In this document: piece after piece, positions 19,826-29,410 of the stretch | Layout of the letters: each line of letters opens with the position of its first letter | Position numbering within the stretch: the first letter of the stretch is position 1 | NCBI GenBank assembly: GCA_025059775.1 | Contig: JANXCW010000016.1 | Location: forward strand, 1 to 37,986 | From: Armatimonadota bacterium | GTDB taxonomy: Bacteria; Sysuimicrobiota; Sysuimicrobiia; Sysuimicrobiales; Sysuimicrobiaceae | Reading direction: 5' to 3' | DNA: 37,986 nt | Translations under genes and position numbers: made by a program | The notes under the pieces: generated by a model | The model's database searches: none | Seen by the model: only the letters and a program-made list of their open reading frames with translations | What the model was told of the DNA's origin: nothing

Positions 19826-20321
19826 GTGGTGGCTGGCTACGCCCACGGGCGGGTGGACCAGCCCTACAACCAGGTGTATGACCCCGCCACGGACTCCTGG
19901 CGGGAAGTCGCGCCCATGCCCCGAGGGTTCAACCACGTGGCGGTCGCCGGATTCCGCGGTCGCCTGTATGCTTTCGACGGGTTCATCGAACAGAACCGCA
20001 ATCCGGTATCCGACTGCTTCGTCTATGACGTCCGGGAGGACCGGTGGAGCCGGATCGCAACCCTCCCCGCGCACCCCTTCCAGATCCGCGGGATCACATG
20101 GGGCTGGTGGTCCTGGAGGGACGCATCTCTGTTCTCGGCGGGGAGGAGCCGGGCAGGGGTGTTTCCTGACAACGACGCCTACGGTCCCCGGACCGACCGG
20201 TGGGTGCCCATGGCGCCCATGCCCACACCCCACCGTGGGAGAGTGGATCTGCATCCCCGCCGGGGGCCTCACCGTGGGCGGAAGCCGCCCCTCGGACGCC
20301 CACGAAGCCTTTCAGCCCTGA
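19826..20321 (+). pseudogene. Kelch-repeat protein remnant with frameshifts
   Basis: About 165 codons of a Kelch-type beta-propeller, recognisable from repeats such as YDPATDSWREVAPMPRGFNHVAVAG, LYAFDGF, YDVREDRWSRIATLP, and TDRWVPMAPMPTP. The frame breaks at about 20090-20160, where the expected blade LVVLEGRISVLGGEEPGRGV is read in a different frame before returning at VFPDNDAY. It breaks again near 20230, after which the propeller-like WICIPAGGLTVGGSRPSDAHEAFQP and a stop at 20319-20321 occur in yet another frame. No start codon context, signal peptide or promoter is seen. The 5' end lies just behind tRNA-Thr. Best read as a decayed, 5'-truncated gene. Confidence 0.7.
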
Positions 20322-20402
20322 CCGCGGCCTCTAGACCTCCTCCGCTTCCTCACACACCCCCGCCGAGCGTCGATCTGAAAAGTCGAGAACATAGGTTCGC
20401 GA

Positions 20403-20432
20403 TTGCATTATTTGTACGGACGTCCTAATAAT
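20403..20432 (+). promoter_or_regulatory. Predicted promoter of the GntR gene
   Basis: TTGCAT (20403-20408) and AATAAT (20427-20432, five of six matches to TATAAT) with an 18-base spacer, in the only clearly AT-rich pocket of this region. The start point would be near 20439, giving a short leader lacking a Shine-Dalgarno. Confidence 0.45.
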
Positions 20433-20442
20433 AGGACGTCCG
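20417..20442. promoter_or_regulatory. 11+11 perfect palindromic operator candidate
   Basis: Left arm CGGACGTCCTA (20417-20427) and right arm TAGGACGTCCG (20432-20442) are exact reverse complements around a 4-base ATAA centre. Each arm contains the self-complementary GACGTC. The predicted -10 lies in the centre, so binding of the adjacent GntR dimer would block its own transcription. Operator identity is inferred from position and symmetry. Confidence 0.65.
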
Positions 20443-21189: not shown

Positions 21190-21220
21190 TGCGGGATGGT
21201 GTCTGAACCCTCATCCCGCA
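21190..21220 (+). other. 9-bp perfect hairpin between gntR and the binding-protein gene
   Basis: TGCGGGATG (21190-21198) and CATCCCGCA (21212-21220) enclose a 13-base loop. No T tract follows. It may attenuate transcription after the regulator, mark an mRNA processing site, or serve as a second operator. Confidence 0.5.
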
Positions 21221-21303: not shown

Positions 21304-22464
21304 ATGCGGTGGTACGGACGGATGCTGGGAATTCTCCTGGCGCTTACGGTGGTCTGGGTGGGTGCCATCGCGATCGCGGGCGGGGCTCCGCGGTTGCCGA
21401 GGCAGATCACCCTGTGCTGGACGCCACCCGACATCACCGGGGTCTTCAAGACCGCCACAGACTTTTTCGAAAAGGCTGCCGCGGAAGCCCGGCAGCACGG
21501 CATCAACGTCCAGATCATCAGCCGCGCGCCCGCGGCCCACACGGAGTTCGCGACACAGGTGGCCATCATCGAGGACTTCATCCAGAGGCGGTGCAATGTC
21601 ATCGCCATCTCGCCCATCGAGGTGGAGGTCATCATCCCCGCCATCCGCAAGGCCAATGCGGCCCGGATCCCCGTGATCATCGTGAACCTCCTCGAACCCA
21701 TCCGCGGGGTGGAGGTGGCCAGCTACATCGGCTTCGACAACACCGTGGCCGCCATGGTCTCCGCGTACTCCCTGGTGGACTACTTCGGAGGTCCGGGAGT
21801 CCTCGGCACAGGGCCACGGGTCAACGTGCGGCCCGACCAGTACCTGGACCTGCAGTGGTGGCAGGGCGTGTACCGGAACTTCCAGGACCGGGTGAGCATC
21901 CGTGCGAATGTGGCCGTGATCGAAGGGATTGCGGGCGGCTTCTTCTCCACCGCCCGGGTGAACGGCTTCCGCAAGGTCACGGGCGCTTTCCCCAACCTCC
22001 GGATCCTGGACATCAAACCCGCAGACTGGAACCGGGAAAAGGGGCGCCGGGTGGCGGAAGACTACCTCACCCGCTGGCCCACGGGCATGGACGCCATCTG
22101 GGCCGCCTCCAACGAGATGGGCTTGGGCGCTATGCTGGCCGCGGAGGCCGCAGGACGCCTGGAGCTGGCGCAGGAAGGGCCCAAGCTGGGCGACGAGAAG
22201 GTGGCCGTCTTCACGAACGATGTTACCCCGGAGTCTACGGCCCGCATCTCGGAGGGCAAAATCGTGGCGGAGACCCACCACGGGTTCCCTGAATGGGGCT
22301 GGTACGGCACCAAGTTCGGTGTGATGCTGGCCCTGGGCCAGCGCGTCCCCAAGATCTTCGACATCCGCCCGCGCACCGTGTACCGGGGCAACCACCAGCT
22401 CTTCTATCCGAATCCGAAACTGGAACCCATTGACTGGGAGGCCATCAAGCGGGCGGCCAGGTAG
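21304..22464 (+). CDS. Sugar ABC transporter substrate-binding protein (RbsB/XylF-like)
   Basis: A 386-residue extracytoplasmic binding protein of the periplasmic-binding type I fold. The N-terminal 25 residues form a signal peptide (MRWYGRMLGILLALTVVW then AIAGG). The mature part has ITLCWTPPDITGVFKTATDFFEKAAAEA, IEDFIQRRCNVIAISPIEVEVIIPAIRKANAA, PVIIVN, and YIGFDNTVAA, all typical of family 4 sugar binders, but it carries an extra roughly 60-residue stretch in the middle. ATG 21304 follows AGGGGGGT by eight bases. Its two downstream partners (ATPase and permease) are separated from it by an SDR gene. Substrate is unknown; a pentose, polyol or inositol is plausible. Confidence 0.9.
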   Translation: MRWYGRMLGILLALTVVWVGAIAIAGGAPRLPRQITLCWTPPDITGVFKTATDFFEKAAAEARQHGINVQIISRAPAAHTEFATQVAIIEDFIQRRCNVIAISPIEVEVIIPAIRKANAARIPVIIVNLLEPIRGVEVASYIGFDNTVAAMVSAYSLVDYFGGPGVLGTGPRVNVRPDQYLDLQWWQGVYRNFQDRVSIRANVAVIEGIAGGFFSTARVNGFRKVTGAFPNLRILDIKPADWNREKGRRVAEDYLTRWPTGMDAIWAASNEMGLGAMLAAEAAGRLELAQEGPKLGDEKVAVFTNDVTPESTARISEGKIVAETHHGFPEWGWYGTKFGVMLALGQRVPKIFDIRPRTVYRGNHQLFYPNPKLEPIDWEAIKRAAR

Positions 22465-22521: not shown

Positions 22522-23277
22522 ATGCCGGGACGAGTGGTGCTCATCACAGGAGCCGGCAAGGGGATCGGGCGGGCGGCGGCGTTAGCGTTCGCCCGGGAGG
22601 GCGAGGCCATCTCTGTGGTGACCCGAAGCGAAGCCCCGGGCCGCGAGACCCTGGACCTCCTGCGCTATCGGGACGCTCGGGGAATCCTGGTGGTGGCGGA
22701 CATCTCCACGCCTCAGGGCGCGCGGCGGGCCGTGGAGGAGACTGTGGCGCGGCTGGGCCGCCTGGACGTGCTCGTGAACAACGCGGGGATCTACCGCCAG
22801 GGCGACATTCTGAGCACGTCTGAGGCCACCTGGGAGGAAGTCCTCCGAGTGAACCTCACGGGTGCCTTTCTGTGCGCGAAGTACGCGGCGGAGTTTATGG
22901 TCCGGCAGGGAAGCGGGGTCATCGTAAACGTAGCCTCAGAAGCGGGACTCGTGGGCATCCCGGACCAGGTGGCGTACAACGTCTCGAAGGCGGGCATGAT
23001 CATGCTCACGAAGAGCCTGGCGGTGGACCTAGCGCGTCATGGGATCCGGGCGAACTGCGTGTGCCCGGGCACCACGGATACTCCTCTCGTGCAGGAGGCC
23101 CTTGCCCGCAGCGGGGATCCGGACCGCGCCCGCCGTCGCCTGGAGGCCATCCGCCCCCTCCAGCGCTTGGGCACGCCGGAGGAGATCGCGGAGGCCATCG
23201 TGTTCTTAGCTAGCGAGCGGTGTGGTTATGCCACGGGAGCAATTCTCTCCGTGGACGGTGGGTACACAGCCCAGTAG
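22522..23277 (+). CDS. Short-chain dehydrogenase/reductase
   Basis: A 251-residue classical SDR. Cofactor motif TGAGKGIG (near residue 10), NNAG motif LVNNAGIYRQGD, catalytic Ser in VNVASEAG and Tyr-x3-Lys in VAYNVSKAGMI are intact, and the C-terminal VDGGYTAQ is typical. Such enzymes oxidise sugar or polyol hydroxyls with NAD(P). ATG 22522 follows GGGAG by about eight bases. It lies between the binding protein and the ATPase genes of the transporter, so it very likely acts on the imported substrate or an early intermediate. Confidence 0.9.
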   Translation: MPGRVVLITGAGKGIGRAAALAFAREGEAISVVTRSEAPGRETLDLLRYRDARGILVVADISTPQGARRAVEETVARLGRLDVLVNNAGIYRQGDILSTSEATWEEVLRVNLTGAFLCAKYAAEFMVRQGSGVIVNVASEAGLVGIPDQVAYNVSKAGMIMLTKSLAVDLARHGIRANCVCPGTTDTPLVQEALARSGDPDRARRRLEAIRPLQRLGTPEEIAEAIVFLASERCGYATGAILSVDGGYTAQ

Positions 23278-24775
23278 ACCAGATCCGGTGCTACGGCTGG
23301 TGGGCATCCACAAGTCCTTCCCGGGCGTCCACGCCCTCCGCGGGGTGAGCCTGGATCTCCGGCCCGGGGAGATCCACATCCTCCTGGGGGAGAACGGGGC
23401 AGGGAAATCCACGCTCCTGCGGATCGCGGGCGGTGCCCTGTGGAAGGATGCGGGAGAGATCCACGTGCTCGGCCGCCGGGTGGAGCTCCGCGGCGTTCAG
23501 CACGCGCGCCAACTCGGCATCGGGATGGTCCACCAGGAGCTCAGTCTCGTCCCCGACCTCTCCGTGGCGGAGAACCTCTTCCTCGGGCAATGGCCCCGGC
23601 ACCGGTGGGGCCTCGTGGCCTGGAGGAAGCTGCATGCGCGGGCCCGGCAGCTGCTTGAGGACCTCGAGATGCCCCTGGACCCGGAGCGGCCCGTCCGGGA
23701 GCTCTCCATCGCGGAGCGGCAACTGGTGGAGCTTAGCCGGGTTCTCGGCCTACAGGTCCGGATCCTGCTCCTGGATGAACCCACCTCCGCCCTGTCGGAG
23801 AGCGATCGGAAGCGCCTGTTCCGGATTCTCCGGGAGCTCCGCAAGCGTGGGGTCGCGGTGGTGTATACGAGTCACCGGCTCGCGGAGGTGTGGGAGATCG
23901 GGGACCGGGTGACGGTGCTCCGGGACGGGCAGGAGGTGGGGACATTTCCGGTGCAGGAGGTAGACGAGGAGGTGCTCGTGCGGCTGATGGTGGGGCGGAT
24001 CCTGCAGGAGCGGTTCCCCAAGGCGACAACTGCCCCGGGCCCTCCCCTTCTCGAGGTCTCCGGGCTCGCCGCGGGCCAGCTCGTGGACGTGAGCTTTCAG
24101 CTCCGGGCCGGGGAGATCGTGGGGGTGTTCGGGCTTCGCGGAAGCGGCCGTTCCACCCTCGCCCGGGCCCTGTTCGGTTTAGTGCGGGTCCGATCCGGCA
24201 CCATCCGGGTGAACGGGAGACCCACAGAGATCCGGAGCCCCCAGGATGCCATCCGGGCGGGGCTTGGGTACCTCACGGAGGACCGGCGGGAGGGCCTTGT
24301 TCCCCTTCTGCCCGTTCCCCCGAACATCACCCTGGCGAGCCTGCGCCGGTTCGTGCGCCGGGGCTTCCTCGACCGTTCCGCGGAGCGGGAGATGGCCCTT
24401 GGGCTCATGGAAGCCCTGGCCATCCACCCCCCTACTCCCTGGCGACCCGCCCTGTACTTCAGCGGCGGCAACCAGCAGAAGATCCTGTTGGGCCGGTGGC
24501 TCGCGAGCGGCGCCCGGATCCTCATCCTGGACGAACCCACCCGGGGAATTGACGTGGGGGCCAAGAGCGAGGTGTTCGCCCTGGTCGGGCAGCTGGTGCA
24601 GCAGGGAGTGGGGGTTTTGCTCCTCTCCTCCGAGATCCCCGAGCTCCTCGCGGTGGCGGACCGCATCCTCGTGCTCCGCTCCGGGCGGCTGACCGCAGAG
24701 TTCTCGAGAACGGAGGCCTCCCAGGAGGCCATCCTGCGCGCCGCGACCGAGCTCAAGGAGGCGGTATGGCCATGA
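23258..24775 (+). CDS. Sugar ABC transporter ATPase with two nucleotide-binding domains (RbsA/XylG-like)
   Basis: A roughly 505-residue ATPase of the ribose/xylose/galactoside type. Domain one has Walker A GENGAGKST, Walker B LLLDEPTSAL, and the signature-like LSIAERQLVE. Domain two has GLRGSGRST in the place of Walker A, the signature FSGGNQQK, and ILDEPTRGIDVGAK. The degenerate GLRGSGRS is common to the second half of this subfamily. The N-terminus is uncertain: GTG 23258 gives VGTQPSRPDPVLRLVGI, GTG 23288 gives a shorter form, and GTG 23222 and ATG 23228 are also in frame; none has a strong ribosome site. It overlaps the SDR gene slightly, suggesting coupling. Confidence 0.92.
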   Translation: MGTQPSRPDPVLRLVGIHKSFPGVHALRGVSLDLRPGEIHILLGENGAGKSTLLRIAGGALWKDAGEIHVLGRRVELRGVQHARQLGIGMVHQELSLVPDLSVAENLFLGQWPRHRWGLVAWRKLHARARQLLEDLEMPLDPERPVRELSIAERQLVELSRVLGLQVRILLLDEPTSALSESDRKRLFRILRELRKRGVAVVYTSHRLAEVWEIGDRVTVLRDGQEVGTFPVQEVDEEVLVRLMVGRILQERFPKATTAPGPPLLEVSGLAAGQLVDVSFQLRAGEIVGVFGLRGSGRSTLARALFGLVRVRSGTIRVNGRPTEIRSPQDAIRAGLGYLTEDRREGLVPLLPVPPNITLASLRRFVRRGFLDRSAEREMALGLMEALAIHPPTPWRPALYFSGGNQQKILLGRWLASGARILILDEPTRGIDVGAKSEVFALVGQLVQQGVGVLLLSSEIPELLAVADRILVLRSGRLTAEFSRTEASQEAILRAATELKEAVWP

Positions 24776-25830
24776 GAAGCGAACTCCCGGCTCCCGAGGC
24801 CTCCGCGGTCCGCCCTCTTCCCACCGGCTGGATGCGCGGCATGCTAGAGCTGGTGGTGGCCCGCGGAGGGCCGCTGGTGATCCTGCTCCTGCTGGTGGCG
24901 TACCTCGCCCTCTCCGCGCCCTACTTTTTCACCGTGGGGAACTTCAAAAACATCCTCCAGCAGACCGCCGCGGTGATGATCCTCGCGGTGGGGCAGAGCG
25001 TGGTCATCATCGGGGCCGGCATTGACCTCTCCGTGGCCGCTACCCTGGCTCTCTCTGCAAGCCTCGGAGCCGTGGCCATGACCTACTGGGCGCAGAGCGT
25101 GTGGGTAGGGGTTCTGCTGGCGCTGGCCGCGGGAACCGTGGTGGGCCTGCTCAACGGTGTAGTGATCACGAAAGGTCGGGTGCCCGACTTCATCGTGACC
25201 CTGGGAACCATGTCCGCGGCCCGCGGGGTTGCCCTCATCCTCACCGGCGGTCTTCCCGTGCCCTCCCACCTCACCGCCATCCAACTCCGGGCCTATCTCC
25301 CGCAGGAGATCATCTGGCTCGGCAGCGGTAGCCTCTTCGGCATCCCCGTGGCGCCCCTCGTCGCCCTCGCCATGGCCTTCGTGGGATGGGTGGTGTTGCA
25401 GCACACGCCTCTTGGGAGGGCCACGTATGCGGTGGGCGGGAACCGGGAGGCCGCTCGTGTGAGCGGCATCGACGTAGACCGGGTGAAGATCTGCGGGTAC
25501 ATGTTGTCGGGGTTCCTCGCGGCGGTGGCGGGACTCGTGCTCATGGGCCGACTGAACTCCGCCAACGCCCTCATGGCGGAGGGGATGGAGCTGCAATCCA
25601 TCGCCGCGGTGGTCCTGGGAGGGACGAACCTCTTCGGGGGCGTGGGCGGTGTGGGCGGGACGGTGGTGGGCGCCCTCATCATGGGCGTCCTGGGAAACGG
25701 CCTGAACCTGCTCAACGTCAGCGCCTTCTGGCAGCGGGTGATCATGGGACTCATGATCGTGCTGGTGGTGATCCTGGACCAGTGGCGCCGTCGGCGGTTC
25801 GAGGCATGGGGAGAGGGGAGAGGTCGGTGA
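24766..25830 (+). CDS. Sugar ABC transporter permease (RbsC-like)
   Basis: A 354-residue inner-membrane permease of the RbsC/XylH family with eight to ten helices. Family marks are NFKNILQQTAAVMILAVGQSVVIIGAGIDLSVA, LLNGVVITKGRVPDFIVTLGTM, the ATPase-contact loop VGGNREAARVSGIDVDRVKICGYMLSGFLA, and VVLGGTNLFGG. ATG 24766 lies four bases after AAGGAGG (24755-24761); ATG 24772 overlaps the ATPase stop as ATGA and is an alternative. As usual for this subclass one permease gene appears, presumably acting as a homodimer. Confidence 0.94.
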   Translation: MAMRSELPAPEASAVRPLPTGWMRGMLELVVARGGPLVILLLLVAYLALSAPYFFTVGNFKNILQQTAAVMILAVGQSVVIIGAGIDLSVAATLALSASLGAVAMTYWAQSVWVGVLLALAAGTVVGLLNGVVITKGRVPDFIVTLGTMSAARGVALILTGGLPVPSHLTAIQLRAYLPQEIIWLGSGSLFGIPVAPLVALAMAFVGWVVLQHTPLGRATYAVGGNREAARVSGIDVDRVKICGYMLSGFLAAVAGLVLMGRLNSANALMAEGMELQSIAAVVLGGTNLFGGVGGVGGTVVGALIMGVLGNGLNLLNVSAFWQRVIMGLMIVLVVILDQWRRRRFEAWGEGRGR

Positions 25831-25887
25831 GGGCACGCGACAGGTCATCCTCCGGCGGCTGCAGCCGTCGGAGGTGGAGGAGTGGGA

Positions 25888-26919
25888 ATGAATCGGATCC
25901 GGATTTGCCTAGTAGGGGCGGGGCGGGCTGGCCTCGTGCACGGCTACCACTTCGCCTTCCGAATTCCGGAGGCGGAGCTGGTGGCCGTGGTGGACGAGGA
26001 TCTCCACGCCCGGATGCACGCCGCGAAGGCGCTGCGGGCACGGCCCTTCGCCTCTCTGGAGGAGGCCCTGGAGGGAGTGGCCTTCGAGGGGGTGTGCGTG
26101 GCTACCCCCACCTTCACGCACCGGGACCTGGTGGTGCGCGCCGCGGAGGCCGGAAAGCACGTGCTATGCGAGAAGCCTCTCGCGCTCGAAGTGCCGCAGG
26201 CCTTGGAGATGATCCGGGCGGCGGAGCGGGCGGGCGTGGTGCTGCAGGTGGGGTTCATGCGGCGCTTCGATGCAGAGTTCCAGGAAGCCCGGGCCCGCAT
26301 CGTCTCCGGAGAGCTGGGCCGCCTCCTCCTGATCCGCTCCACCACCCGGGGGCCGGGGCTCCCGCCTCCATGGGCGTGGGATCCGAAGAAGGGAATCGGT
26401 CTGCTCGCGGAGGTCACCAGCCACGACTTCGACACCCTGCGGTGGCTCTCCGGGTCGGAGTACCGGTCCGTGTTCGCCCGGGTCGCGGCCCGGAAGGCCA
26501 CCCACCTCCTGGCGGAGTACCCGGACTTCTACGACGTGGCCCTGGTGAGCGTGGAGATGGAGGACGGAACCCTGGGCAGCATCGAAGGGGCCTGTCCTGT
26601 GGACTACGGGTACGACTCGCGGGTGGAGATCCTCGGAACCGACGGGATGATCTCCATCGGAGGGATCCGAAAGGGCTCATGGATGCGGGTCACGCGGGAG
26701 GGCCAGGTGCTGCATGAGGCGGTCCGGAGCTGGCGGGACCGGTACCACGACGCGTACCTGGCGGAGGACGAGCACTTTGTCGCTTGCATCCAGCGGAGCT
26801 GCCCTCCGGAGGTCACAGGGTGGGACGGACTGCGAGCCCTGGAAGCTACCCTGGCCGCGATACGGTCTGCGGCCGCCGGCCTCCCGCAGCCCGTGGAACG
26901 GGTGGAGGCAGGTCTGTGA
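25888..26919 (+). CDS. Gfo/Idh/MocA oxidoreductase, inositol 2-dehydrogenase-like
   Basis: A 343-residue NAD(P)-dependent dehydrogenase. It has the N-terminal Rossmann motif LVGAGRAGLVH, the cofactor/catalytic motif CEKPLAL with the conserved Lys, GFMRRFDAEFQEAR and SHDFDTLRWLSGSEY, the last two resembling IolG/inositol dehydrogenases. Substrates of this family are cyclic polyols or sugars. ATG 25888 lies behind GGAGGTGGAGGAG; GTG 25882 would add two residues. The gene overlaps the following zinc dehydrogenase by GTGA. The inositol assignment is tentative since no other iol gene is visible. Confidence 0.85.
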   Translation: MNRIRICLVGAGRAGLVHGYHFAFRIPEAELVAVVDEDLHARMHAAKALRARPFASLEEALEGVAFEGVCVATPTFTHRDLVVRAAEAGKHVLCEKPLALEVPQALEMIRAAERAGVVLQVGFMRRFDAEFQEARARIVSGELGRLLLIRSTTRGPGLPPPWAWDPKKGIGLLAEVTSHDFDTLRWLSGSEYRSVFARVAARKATHLLAEYPDFYDVALVSVEMEDGTLGSIEGACPVDYGYDSRVEILGTDGMISIGGIRKGSWMRVTREGQVLHEAVRSWRDRYHDAYLAEDEHFVACIQRSCPPEVTGWDGLRALEATLAAIRSAAAGLPQPVERVEAGL

Positions 26920-27944
26920 AGGCCGCGGTCTGCACACCCGGAGAGGGCATCTCGCTGGAGACGTGGCCCCCGCCGCGCCTGGAGCCCGGGGACGTCCTGG
27001 TCCGGGTACGCGCGGCCTCCATCTGCGCCACGGACCTGAAAATCGTCCGCCAGGGTCACTTCAGGATCCCGCCCGGGACCCGGCGCATCCTGGGACATGA
27101 GATCGCGGGAGAGGTGGTGGAGGTACGCGCTCCAGAGTTCACGGTGCGGGTGGGCCAGCGGGTGGGATTGGTGCCCAACGTGGGCTGCGGCCGGTGCGGC
27201 GCCTGCACCGCGGGCCTGGACTCCCTCTGCCCGGACTACGATGCCCTGGGCATCACCCTGGATGGGGGATTCGCGGAGCTCGTGCGGGTGCCGGCCCGGG
27301 CAGTACAGCGGGGTCACGTGGTGCCGCTCCCGGAGGACGTCACGTTCGAGGAGGCCGCGCTCGCAGAGCCCCTCTCCTGTGCTCTGAACGCACATGAGGT
27401 GGTGGCCACAGGTCCCGGGGACCGTGTGCTCGTTCTTGGAGCCGGTCCCATGGGACTCCTGAACGCCCTGGTGGCGAGGATCCGGGGTGCCGGAGAGGTG
27501 GTGGTGGTGGACCCCTGGCCTCAGAGGCGAGAGGCGGCACTCCGGTTGGGCGCGGATGAAGCCCTTTCCCCGGAGGTGGTCCCGCAGCTGGAGGACAGCT
27601 TCGACGTGGTGATCGTCACCGCCCCAGACCCCCGGGCTCAGGAGCAGGCGGTCCGGGCGGCCGCGGTGCGGGGCCGGGTGAACTTCTTCGCGGGCTTCCC
27701 CGCGGAGTGCACGCCGCCCTTGCTCGACACAAACCGGGTGCACTACCGCCAGCTCCTCCTCACGGGCACCACCGGCCAGACGGTGGCACACTACCACCGG
27801 GCGCTGCACCTCCTGCCCCGCCTCCGGCCGCATCTGGTGTACCTGGTGACGGACCGGCAGCCGCTGGAGGAAGTGGCCGCGGCCATGGCCTCCATGGCGG
27901 CGAGGCGGAGCCTGAAGGCCGTGCTGTTCCCCGCGGACCTCTAG
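26916..27944 (+). CDS. Zinc-dependent alcohol/polyol dehydrogenase (MDR family)
   Basis: A 342-residue MDR dehydrogenase related to sorbitol, threonine and galactitol-phosphate dehydrogenases. SICATDLKIV carries the catalytic-zinc Cys, GHEIAGEV the Glu, and PNVGCGRCGACTAGLDSLC the four structural-zinc Cys. The NAD site is VLGAGPMGLLNALVARIRGA with VVDPWPQRRE after it. Typical polyol-type AEPLSCALNAHEV is present. GTG 26916 overlaps the previous stop (GTGA) and follows GGAGG. It probably oxidises a hydroxyl of the imported polyol or a derived sugar; the exact substrate is unknown. Confidence 0.88.
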   Translation: MKAAVCTPGEGISLETWPPPRLEPGDVLVRVRAASICATDLKIVRQGHFRIPPGTRRILGHEIAGEVVEVRAPEFTVRVGQRVGLVPNVGCGRCGACTAGLDSLCPDYDALGITLDGGFAELVRVPARAVQRGHVVPLPEDVTFEEAALAEPLSCALNAHEVVATGPGDRVLVLGAGPMGLLNALVARIRGAGEVVVVDPWPQRREAALRLGADEALSPEVVPQLEDSFDVVIVTAPDPRAQEQAVRAAAVRGRVNFFAGFPAECTPPLLDTNRVHYRQLLLTGTTGQTVAHYHRALHLLPRLRPHLVYLVTDRQPLEEVAAAMASMAARRSLKAVLFPADL

Positions 27945-27982
27945 GGACGCGGGGAACAGATTCCCACACGGAGGAGGGTGTG

Positions 27983-29410
27983 ATGGAACACGTAGACCTT
28001 CTCATCGACGGAACCTGGGTGGAGGGCAGGGAGAAGCTCTCCGTCCTCAATCCCGCGGACGAGGAGGTGGTGGGGTCCGCCTCCGTAGCTGCCCCGGCGG
28101 AGGTGGACGCCGCGGTGGAGGCCGCGGAGCGGGCGTTCCGGGTGTGGTCCCGCACGGCCCCGGCGCACCGCGCGGCCCTGCTCCGCCGGGCTGCGCACCT
28201 CGTCCGGGAACGCCTGGAAGCGATTGCGCGCCTTTTGACCCTCGAGCAGGGCAAACCCCTCAAGGATGCGCGGGGGGAGGTGCAGGCCGGTGCGGAGGCC
28301 CTGGAGTACTATGCGGAGGAGGCCCGGAGAATCTTCGGCCGCACCATCCCCACGGATCACCCCAACCGCCGCAGCTTCGTCATCCATCAGCCCGTGGGGC
28401 CTGTGGCCGCCATCGGCCCGTGGAACTACCCCGTCCTGCTCCTGGCGTGGAAGATCGCACCCGCCCTGGCCGCGGGGTGCACGGTGGTGGCGAAACCACC
28501 TTCCCGGACGCCGCTCGCGGTCTCGCGGTTCCTGGCATGCCTGGTGGAAGCCGGCGCTCCGAATGGCGTGGTGAACACCGTGATCGGCCCGGGACGTACG
28601 GTAGGAACCTACCTCGTGCGACATCCCGGCATCCGCAAGATCGCCTTCACGGGGGAGACCTCAACCGGAAAGGAAATCCTCCGGATGGCGGCGGAGGGGA
28701 TGAAGCGGGTCTCCCTGGAGCTAGGAGGACACTGCCCGCTGCTCGTCTTTCCGGATGCGGACCTGGAGGCCGCGGCCCGGGGTGCGGCCTACCGCGCCTT
28801 CCGCAACATGGGACAGGTGTGCAATGCCGTCAACCGCATCTACGTCCACCACCAGGTGTACGAACCCTTCGTGGAGCAGTTCGTGGAGTACACCCGGCGG
28901 TTGCGGATCGGCCCCGGTCTGGAGGATCCCGATCTGGGGCCCATGACCAGCCGGGAAGGGCTAGAAAGGACCGTGGCGCACATCGAGGACGCCCGGGCCA
29001 AAGGTGCCCGGGTAGTATACGGGGGACACCGACCGGAGGGGTTCCCGAAGGGGTACTTTTTCACCCCCACAGTGTTGGTGGACGTGGACCACTCCATGGA
29101 GGTCATGCGGGAAGAGACCTTCGGCCCGGTCGCGCCCATCATGTCCTTTGGGGACCTGCAGGAGGCCTTGCGGCTCGCCAACGACACCCCCTACGGGCTC
29201 GTGGCGTACCTGTACACCCGGGACCTCCGCACCGCCTTCCTCGTGGCAGAGGGGCTGGAGGCGGGGACCGTAGGCGTCAACAACGTGGTGGGGGGAGAGG
29301 TACCCTTCCCCTACGGAGGCTGGAAGGAGAGTGGATTCGGCCTGGAACTCTCGCACGAGGGCCTTATGGAGTACCTGCTCATCAAGCACATCCGCGTTGA
29401 TCTCCCGTGA
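27983..29410 (+). CDS. NAD(P)-dependent aldehyde dehydrogenase
   Basis: A 475-residue aldehyde dehydrogenase of the succinate-semialdehyde/glycolaldehyde/lactaldehyde type. Catalytic residues are in place: Asn148 in GPWNYP, Lys171 in VAKPPSRTPL, Glu246 in LELGGH, and Cys280 in FRNMGQVCNAVNR. The late motifs EETFGPVAPI and GGWKESGFGLELSHEGLMEYL are typical. ATG 27983 follows GGAGGAGGG. The enzyme would oxidise an aldehyde, such as glycolaldehyde, lactaldehyde or a sugar-derived semialdehyde, to the acid. It is 38 bp behind the alcohol dehydrogenase and runs straight into the cupin gene. Confidence 0.94.
   Translation: MEHVDLLIDGTWVEGREKLSVLNPADEEVVGSASVAAPAEVDAAVEAAERAFRVWSRTAPAHRAALLRRAAHLVRERLEAIARLLTLEQGKPLKDARGEVQAGAEALEYYAEEARRIFGRTIPTDHPNRRSFVIHQPVGPVAAIGPWNYPVLLLAWKIAPALAAGCTVVAKPPSRTPLAVSRFLACLVEAGAPNGVVNTVIGPGRTVGTYLVRHPGIRKIAFTGETSTGKEILRMAAEGMKRVSLELGGHCPLLVFPDADLEAAARGAAYRAFRNMGQVCNAVNRIYVHHQVYEPFVEQFVEYTRRLRIGPGLEDPDLGPMTSREGLERTVAHIEDARAKGARVVYGGHRPEGFPKGYFFTPTVLVDVDHSMEVMREETFGPVAPIMSFGDLQEALRLANDTPYGLVAYLYTRDLRTAFLVAEGLEAGTVGVNNVVGGEVPFPYGGWKESGFGLELSHEGLMEYLLIKHIRVDLP

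Follow-up and report, generated by a model that had tools for sequence, protein, structure and literature searches.

A perfect palindrome upstream of a HutC-type gntR gene as part of a candidate operator for the regulator and its sugar operon

A perfect inverted repeat lies at the promoter of a gntR gene in the window, the 37,986-nucleotide stretch of DNA that was analysed here. The HutC-type GntR repressor encoded next to it would control both its own gene and the sugar operon behind it, and we consider it probable that the palindrome forms part of its operator. The kind of switch would be ordinary, but the conserved core is displaced leftwards from the palindrome by a few bases, and its centre is unusual. 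The best-conserved part of the site, TGTACGGACGTCC, overlaps the left edge of the palindrome, is kept together with the regulator in its orthologues, and is found at the operon promoter where the gene order has changed.

The assignment of the downstream gene to the GntR/HutC regulators in the original prediction is borne out by its domains, an N-terminal GntR winged helix-turn-helix (residues 12-75) and a C-terminal UTRA domain (residues 98-234). Among the named HutC equivalogs of NCBIfam (HutC, TreR, PhnF, PhnR and LSA1692) the best score is 145.6 bits, below the cut-off of 275. The nearest solved structures are those of NagR/YvoA (E 1.3e-45 for NagR) and DasR. The gene is followed by genes for sugar-type ABC transport and several dehydrogenases (Table 1). 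A hairpin-like repeat, GCGGGATG...CATCCCGC, lies between gntR and the gene of the periplasmic binding protein (SBP), at 21190-21220; to the eye it partly resembles its counterpart in G001, but the folds predicted for them disagree.

Table 1. Features of the candidate operator, its promoter and the genes behind it (positions in the window).
Feature	Position	Strand	Basis or remark
TTGCAT, weak -35-like hexamer	20403..20408	+	3/6; sequence, below scan threshold
TGTACGGACGTCC, common to orthologues and SBP promoters of five rearranged operons	20413..20425	+	Sequence comparison
GTACGGAC, HutC-format core GT-N4-AC with CG centre	20414..20421	.	Candidate primary dimer site (box 1)
Inverted repeat CGGACGTCCTA-ATAA-TAGGACGTCCG	20417..20442	.	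26 bp; feature of the original prediction
GGACGTCC, copy 1	20418..20425	.	Itself an 8-bp palindrome
AATAAT, -10-like hexamer at palindrome centre	20427..20432	+	5/6; sequence, below scan threshold
AATAGGAC, candidate box 2, orientation as box 1	20430..20437	+	Left half overlaps -10-like sequence
GGACGTCC, copy 2	20434..20441	.	16 bp from copy 1; GGACG part kept in 4/4 gntR-first sites
GntR-UTRA (HutC-type) regulator gene, 241 aa	20460..21185	+	PF00392 84 bits, PF07702 120.7 bits
Sugar-type periplasmic binding protein (SBP; Peripla_BP_4)	21304..22464	+	Domain match
Short-chain dehydrogenase (SDR)	22522..23277	+	Domain match
Ribose/arabinose-type ABC ATPase	23222..24775	+	Domain and family match
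Ribose-type ABC permease	24766..25830	+	Domain and family match
Gfo/Idh-type dehydrogenase	25882..26919	+	Nearest model inositol 2-dehydrogenase, 264 bits, below cut-off 355
Alcohol-dehydrogenase-like protein	26910..27944	+	Named by eye from translation; no NCBIfam match at 1e-60
Aldehyde dehydrogenase	27977..29410	+	Model match

The sequence and coordinates first given for a perfect 22-base palindrome are exact: arms CGGACGTCCTA (20417-20427) and TAGGACGTCCG (20432-20442) surround an ATAA loop, making 22 arm bases in 26 bp, and the repeat ends 17 bp before the ATG of gntR. Because each arm holds the self-palindromic GGACGTCC, two direct copies of it 16 bp apart automatically form a wide inverted repeat. 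Beyond these copies the symmetry comprises only C/G and TA/TA pairs, and the wide symmetry is largely a consequence of the two copies and their spacing. A Kelch-type reading frame (19826-20428) runs into the palindrome; Kelch models match only its first part, so the remainder may have decayed or acquired a frameshift.

No second place in the window matches the 26-mer at up to 3 mismatches. The genome-wide search for the arm sequence that had been suggested as a check found TAGGACGTCC at five places in the 2.35-Mb genome, two of them at this site, and the scan of the genome gave no near-copy of the whole site above the reversed-pattern control. In a regulon scan of two genomes with a degenerate 26-mer only the gntR sites rose above such a control, and the bare pattern GGACGTCC-N8-GGACGTCC, with 2 mismatches, showed no enrichment over control in most of 46 genomes.

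The genomes compared include 43 of this phylum, all of one order; Sysuimicrobiota (CSP1-3) is described as a single class with a single order (PMC11604079). Proteins of the orthologous and rearranged loci were compared with the window's own proteins only. Orthologues of the regulator were found in G001 (96% identity), G006 (85%), G009 (74%) and G019 (about 71%, cut at the contig end). In G009, none of the window's other ten query genes lies beside the regulator within the 12 kb examined. A recognisable form of the site is present upstream of gntR in all three orthologues with upstream DNA (L007, L008 and L009: CGGACGTTCTAATAATAGGACGACTG, CGGACATCCTATCGTCTGGACGTCAG and CGGTCATGCTAACATCAGGACGAGGA). 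Of the 26 operator columns in the four-way alignment, 13 are invariant, compared with 10 among the 75 remaining upstream columns (Fisher p = 3e-4), and GGACG recurs in all four gntR-first sites at the same 16-bp offset. The symmetric pairs, in contrast, fall from 11 of 11 in the window to 8, 7 and 5 of 11 in the three orthologues. The original prediction was to stand or fall with conservation of the palindrome beside orthologous regulators; what is conserved is the site, whereas its perfect symmetry is lost. As the stability of the predicted RNA stem decays along with the symmetry, selection seems to keep neither a perfect dyad nor a hairpin. The two boxes can be read as direct or inverted copies with equal fit (8, 5, 6 and 4 of 8 matches either way).

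The published HutC operator is NyGTMTAKACNy, with GT and AC 4 nt apart (PMC4494728). The core GTACGGAC fits GTM-NN-KAC and departs from the consensus at its centre, where CG replaces TA. No other match to GT-M-NN-K-AC occurs in the 138 bp before gntR; the whole window holds nine. The 4-nt spacing of GT and AC is also found in GTCCGGAC (L007 and G016), and the sites ATACGGAC (L008), GTACGGTC (L009) and GTACGGAT (four same-genus genomes) are one GT/AC position off. A CG centre, not TA, is seen in the window, the three orthologues and five rearranged operons. The departure from the common GntR core that had been noted for the palindrome is thus not upheld, apart from the centre: the core is present, and it was missed because it straddles the palindrome's left edge. 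In place of AATAGGAC, the format of the core at the second box, L008 carries GTCTGGAC.

HutC operators in general also combine the GTM-NN-KAC format with weaker extra boxes beside the main site, but their centre is TA, and these boxes are found at 7-12 nt from the middle of the site, compared with 16 bp here (PMC4494728). The operators of the HutC members SdhR, FarR and NagQ, named in the same survey, likewise have internal repeats beyond one simple palindrome (PMC4494728); they are A/T-rich and unrelated in sequence to the present site. Among the papers listed by searches of the GntR literature for GACGTC, CGGAC or GTCCG, none describes such a HutC site in its title or abstract.

Further evidence comes from operons in which the gene order differs. 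In G010, G023, G029 and G032, which belong to one genus, and in G016, the regulator is 54-56% identical to that of the window; the syntenic operon starts at the SBP gene and gntR follows the permease gene. Four of the five operons come from one genus, so the group represents two independent lineages. The SBP promoter regions carry, on the lower strand, TGTACGGATGTCT (the four same-genus genomes) or TGTCCGGACGTCT (G016), with CATCCGTCC as the second arm at a spacing different from the window's. A weight matrix built from the four gntR-first sites only was ranked over all positions on both strands of the five loci of 13-19 kb, and the SBP-promoter place came first (L146, L147) or second (L143, L144, L145; in L145 the first rank goes to this position read on the opposite strand) in every one. 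In the reverse matrix test, 20413 was the best-ranked position of the window, and the site of G001 came second in its own locus; the sites of G006 (L008) and G009 (L009) fell outside the best five of their loci. Exact TGTMCGGAYRTC was found in neither G006 nor G009, and in G001 and G019 only elsewhere. In the four same-genus loci the element starts about 20 bp after TTGACA-19-TATAAT or TAGAAT. Since the element stands at the SBP promoter when gntR lies inside the operon, it goes with the operon promoter and not with the gntR start codon.

A second, near-identical copy of the composite operator is found in G016 at C9:34652 (L218 1501), upstream of another SBP gene and adjoining a further ABC operon; this copy suggests a two-operon regulon in that genome. 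Separately, the 18-bp near-palindrome TGTCCGGATATCCGAACA, which shares the TGTCCGGAT arm, occurs in G000 at contig C3:107916 (L205 1501). It precedes a gene for methylmalonate-semialdehyde dehydrogenase (TIGR01722) by about 50 bp and is kept with one change in G001 (L231, about 1749). It is possibly a second target of the window's regulator or of a paralogue.

The palindrome could instead be a single wide operator, all 22/26 bp of it read by one GntR dimer, as first proposed. The perfect 11-bp arms in this genome, and an inner CTA..TAG symmetry that exceeds what two GGACGTCC copies need, agree with this, as do the 8 and 7 of 11 pairs that two of the orthologues retain, values that 0.2% and 1.2% of random 26-mers reach. 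We nevertheless regard it as unlikely. L009 is down to 5 pairs, which 15% of random 26-mers equal, and the conserved element reaches 5' of the palindrome. Half-sites 16 bp apart do not readily fit one dimer, because in HutC sites 4 nt separate GT from AC (PMC4494728) and the two DNA-binding domains of NagR are next to each other within a single segment of the major groove (PMC4333415).

It is more doubtful still that the site serves some regulator other than the adjacent GntR. A CG-centred site falls outside the published HutC norm (PMC4494728), but the element stands at the promoter of the operon that holds this regulator in both gene orders, as seen in loci compared with the window's own proteins only, and its format agrees with HutC and with the substitutions in the recognition region described below. 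Pure chance in a GC-rich promoter is very improbable. Repeats of this length often turn up in a stretch as long as the window, some repeat with arms of at least 11 and a loop of up to 30 arising in 176 of 300 first-order resampled 38-kb windows (54 of 300 with a loop of up to 4), and three further repeats with arms of 11-13 occur elsewhere in the window; in the 140 bp upstream of gntR, however, such a repeat appeared in 12 of 20,000 resamplings and is rare at this scale, and chance does not explain conservation with the regulator and at the promoters of rearranged operons. Action in RNA as a hairpin, whether terminator, attenuator or stability element, was rejected as scarcely credible: the window copy folds to an 11-bp stem of -18.7 kcal/mol, but the predicted fold weakens across the orthologues (-8.2, -7.1 and -1.6 kcal/mol), no U run follows the palindrome, and the start site expected within it would leave most of the left arm untranscribed.

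The operator of the adjacent regulator, our preferred reading, can also be compared with the residues expected to contact DNA. In NagR, Arg48 contacts G-4 and Arg38 contacts G-5, and the wing is anchored by Gly69 (PMC4333415). Counted along an alignment to NagR, Arg48 corresponds to Arg49 of the window's regulator, Arg38 to Ala39, Gly69 to Gly70 and Met49 to Ala50. With Arg48 kept and Arg38 replaced by Ala, a G at -4 and none at -5 would be expected, and in the core GTACGGAC both strands carry a G at -4 and no G stands at -5. The position reported to correlate with the central bases is Met49 by our own count (PMC4494728). In cases that are few and partly related, a CG centre accompanies Ala (four gntR-first sites), Gln (four rearranged) or His (G016) at this position, and the Met-bearing paralogues of G005 and G004 (L125, L130) have GTCTAGAC, with a TA centre, near their starts. 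A tentative idea is a code for UTRA repressors in which base -5 depends on the residue at NagR position 38, base -4 on that at position 48 and the central pair on that at position 49. The Acidobacteriota homologues keep Arg38, have Leu for Arg48, and carry upstream GCTATATAGC, whose G at -5 and C at -4 match this residue swap. In 35 of 42 loci, Acidobacteriota UTRA-GntR genes (L041-L099; motif SERxLAxxHxVSLMT) are preceded by GCTATATAG(C/T) at a distance of no more than 800 bp, and in L090 (2629) and L057 (2638) this sequence closely precedes a divergent gene. Matches of the 26-bp matrix in these two loci were rejected as the same operator, the site there being the different operator GCTATATAGC. 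No publication joining all the terms sought was found for the Acidobacteriota operator.

GACGTC near the start was found in 13 of the 65 regulator matches examined out of 78, the 13 left out being the G019 copy (contig end), the fragment L135 and 11 mostly distant ones. In a paralogous UTRA clade (L113, L115, L117, L035), CTAGACGTCTAG occurs about 20-30 bp before the match start. Nested arrays of GAC/GTC half-sites are seen at other UTRA-GntR genes of the phylum, namely GGACGTCTAGACGTCC (L125, near the start codon) and AGACGTCCGGACGTCC (L017, about -40). AraR of B. subtilis binds paired operators with an ACGT-type centre, and its effector domain is LacI-like, not UTRA. Its DNA-binding domain is of the GntR type and keeps one of the two NagR arginines (PMC4333415). 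The closest parallel in the comparison is NagR (YvoA) of B. subtilis with its dre sites, which shares the domain architecture, the Arg for G-4, the wing Gly and the GT-N4-AC core (PMC4333415). The present system differs from it in the Arg38 to Ala and Met49 to Ala changes, the CG centre instead of TA, the lack of G at -5, the two adjacent boxes and the operon controlled.

The -10 that had been placed at the palindrome centre is weakly supported: a sigma-70-type scan found nothing over threshold in the window, L007 or L008, and called TTGACC-17-TAACAT in L009, with the -10 at the site centre. We propose that the core GTACGGAC within TGTACGGACGTCC would be the primary site, with a second, weaker box 16 bp downstream, GGACGTCC copy 2 or, in the format of the core, AATAGGAC. 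The two boxes would flank and overlap the -10 of the promoter driving gntR, and the same promoter would presumably drive the operon for ABC sugar transport and dehydrogenases that follows. Dimers on box 1 and/or box 2 (about 20430-20441) would cover the spacer, the -10 and the start region and block RNA polymerase, until a sugar or sugar-phosphate ligand at the UTRA domain releases them. With dimers at a shared promoter released by a ligand, the regulator would repress itself and the operon together. Binding, repression, occupancy by two dimers, co-transcription and the inducer are what we infer here. The autorepression of the original prediction is probably right, since the site is kept with the regulator, with control probably extending to the whole operon and not to the regulator alone. 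The proposed GntR/HutC dimer on the 22-base palindrome is not supported, its symmetry being unconserved and the conserved element shifted left beyond it.

For this HutC-type repressor, the site provides a concrete candidate operator together with a candidate target operon. The phylum, probably Sysuimicrobiota/CSP1-3, does not appear in the taxonomy table of the HutC survey (PMC4494728). It also illustrates that a striking perfect palindrome can mislead, as the conserved candidate binding element is offset from it. If a CG-centred HutC class is real, this phylum would have an early example of it in the window's operon, and if the residue-to-base pattern holds, the operators of uncharacterised UTRA regulators may be predictable from three residues.
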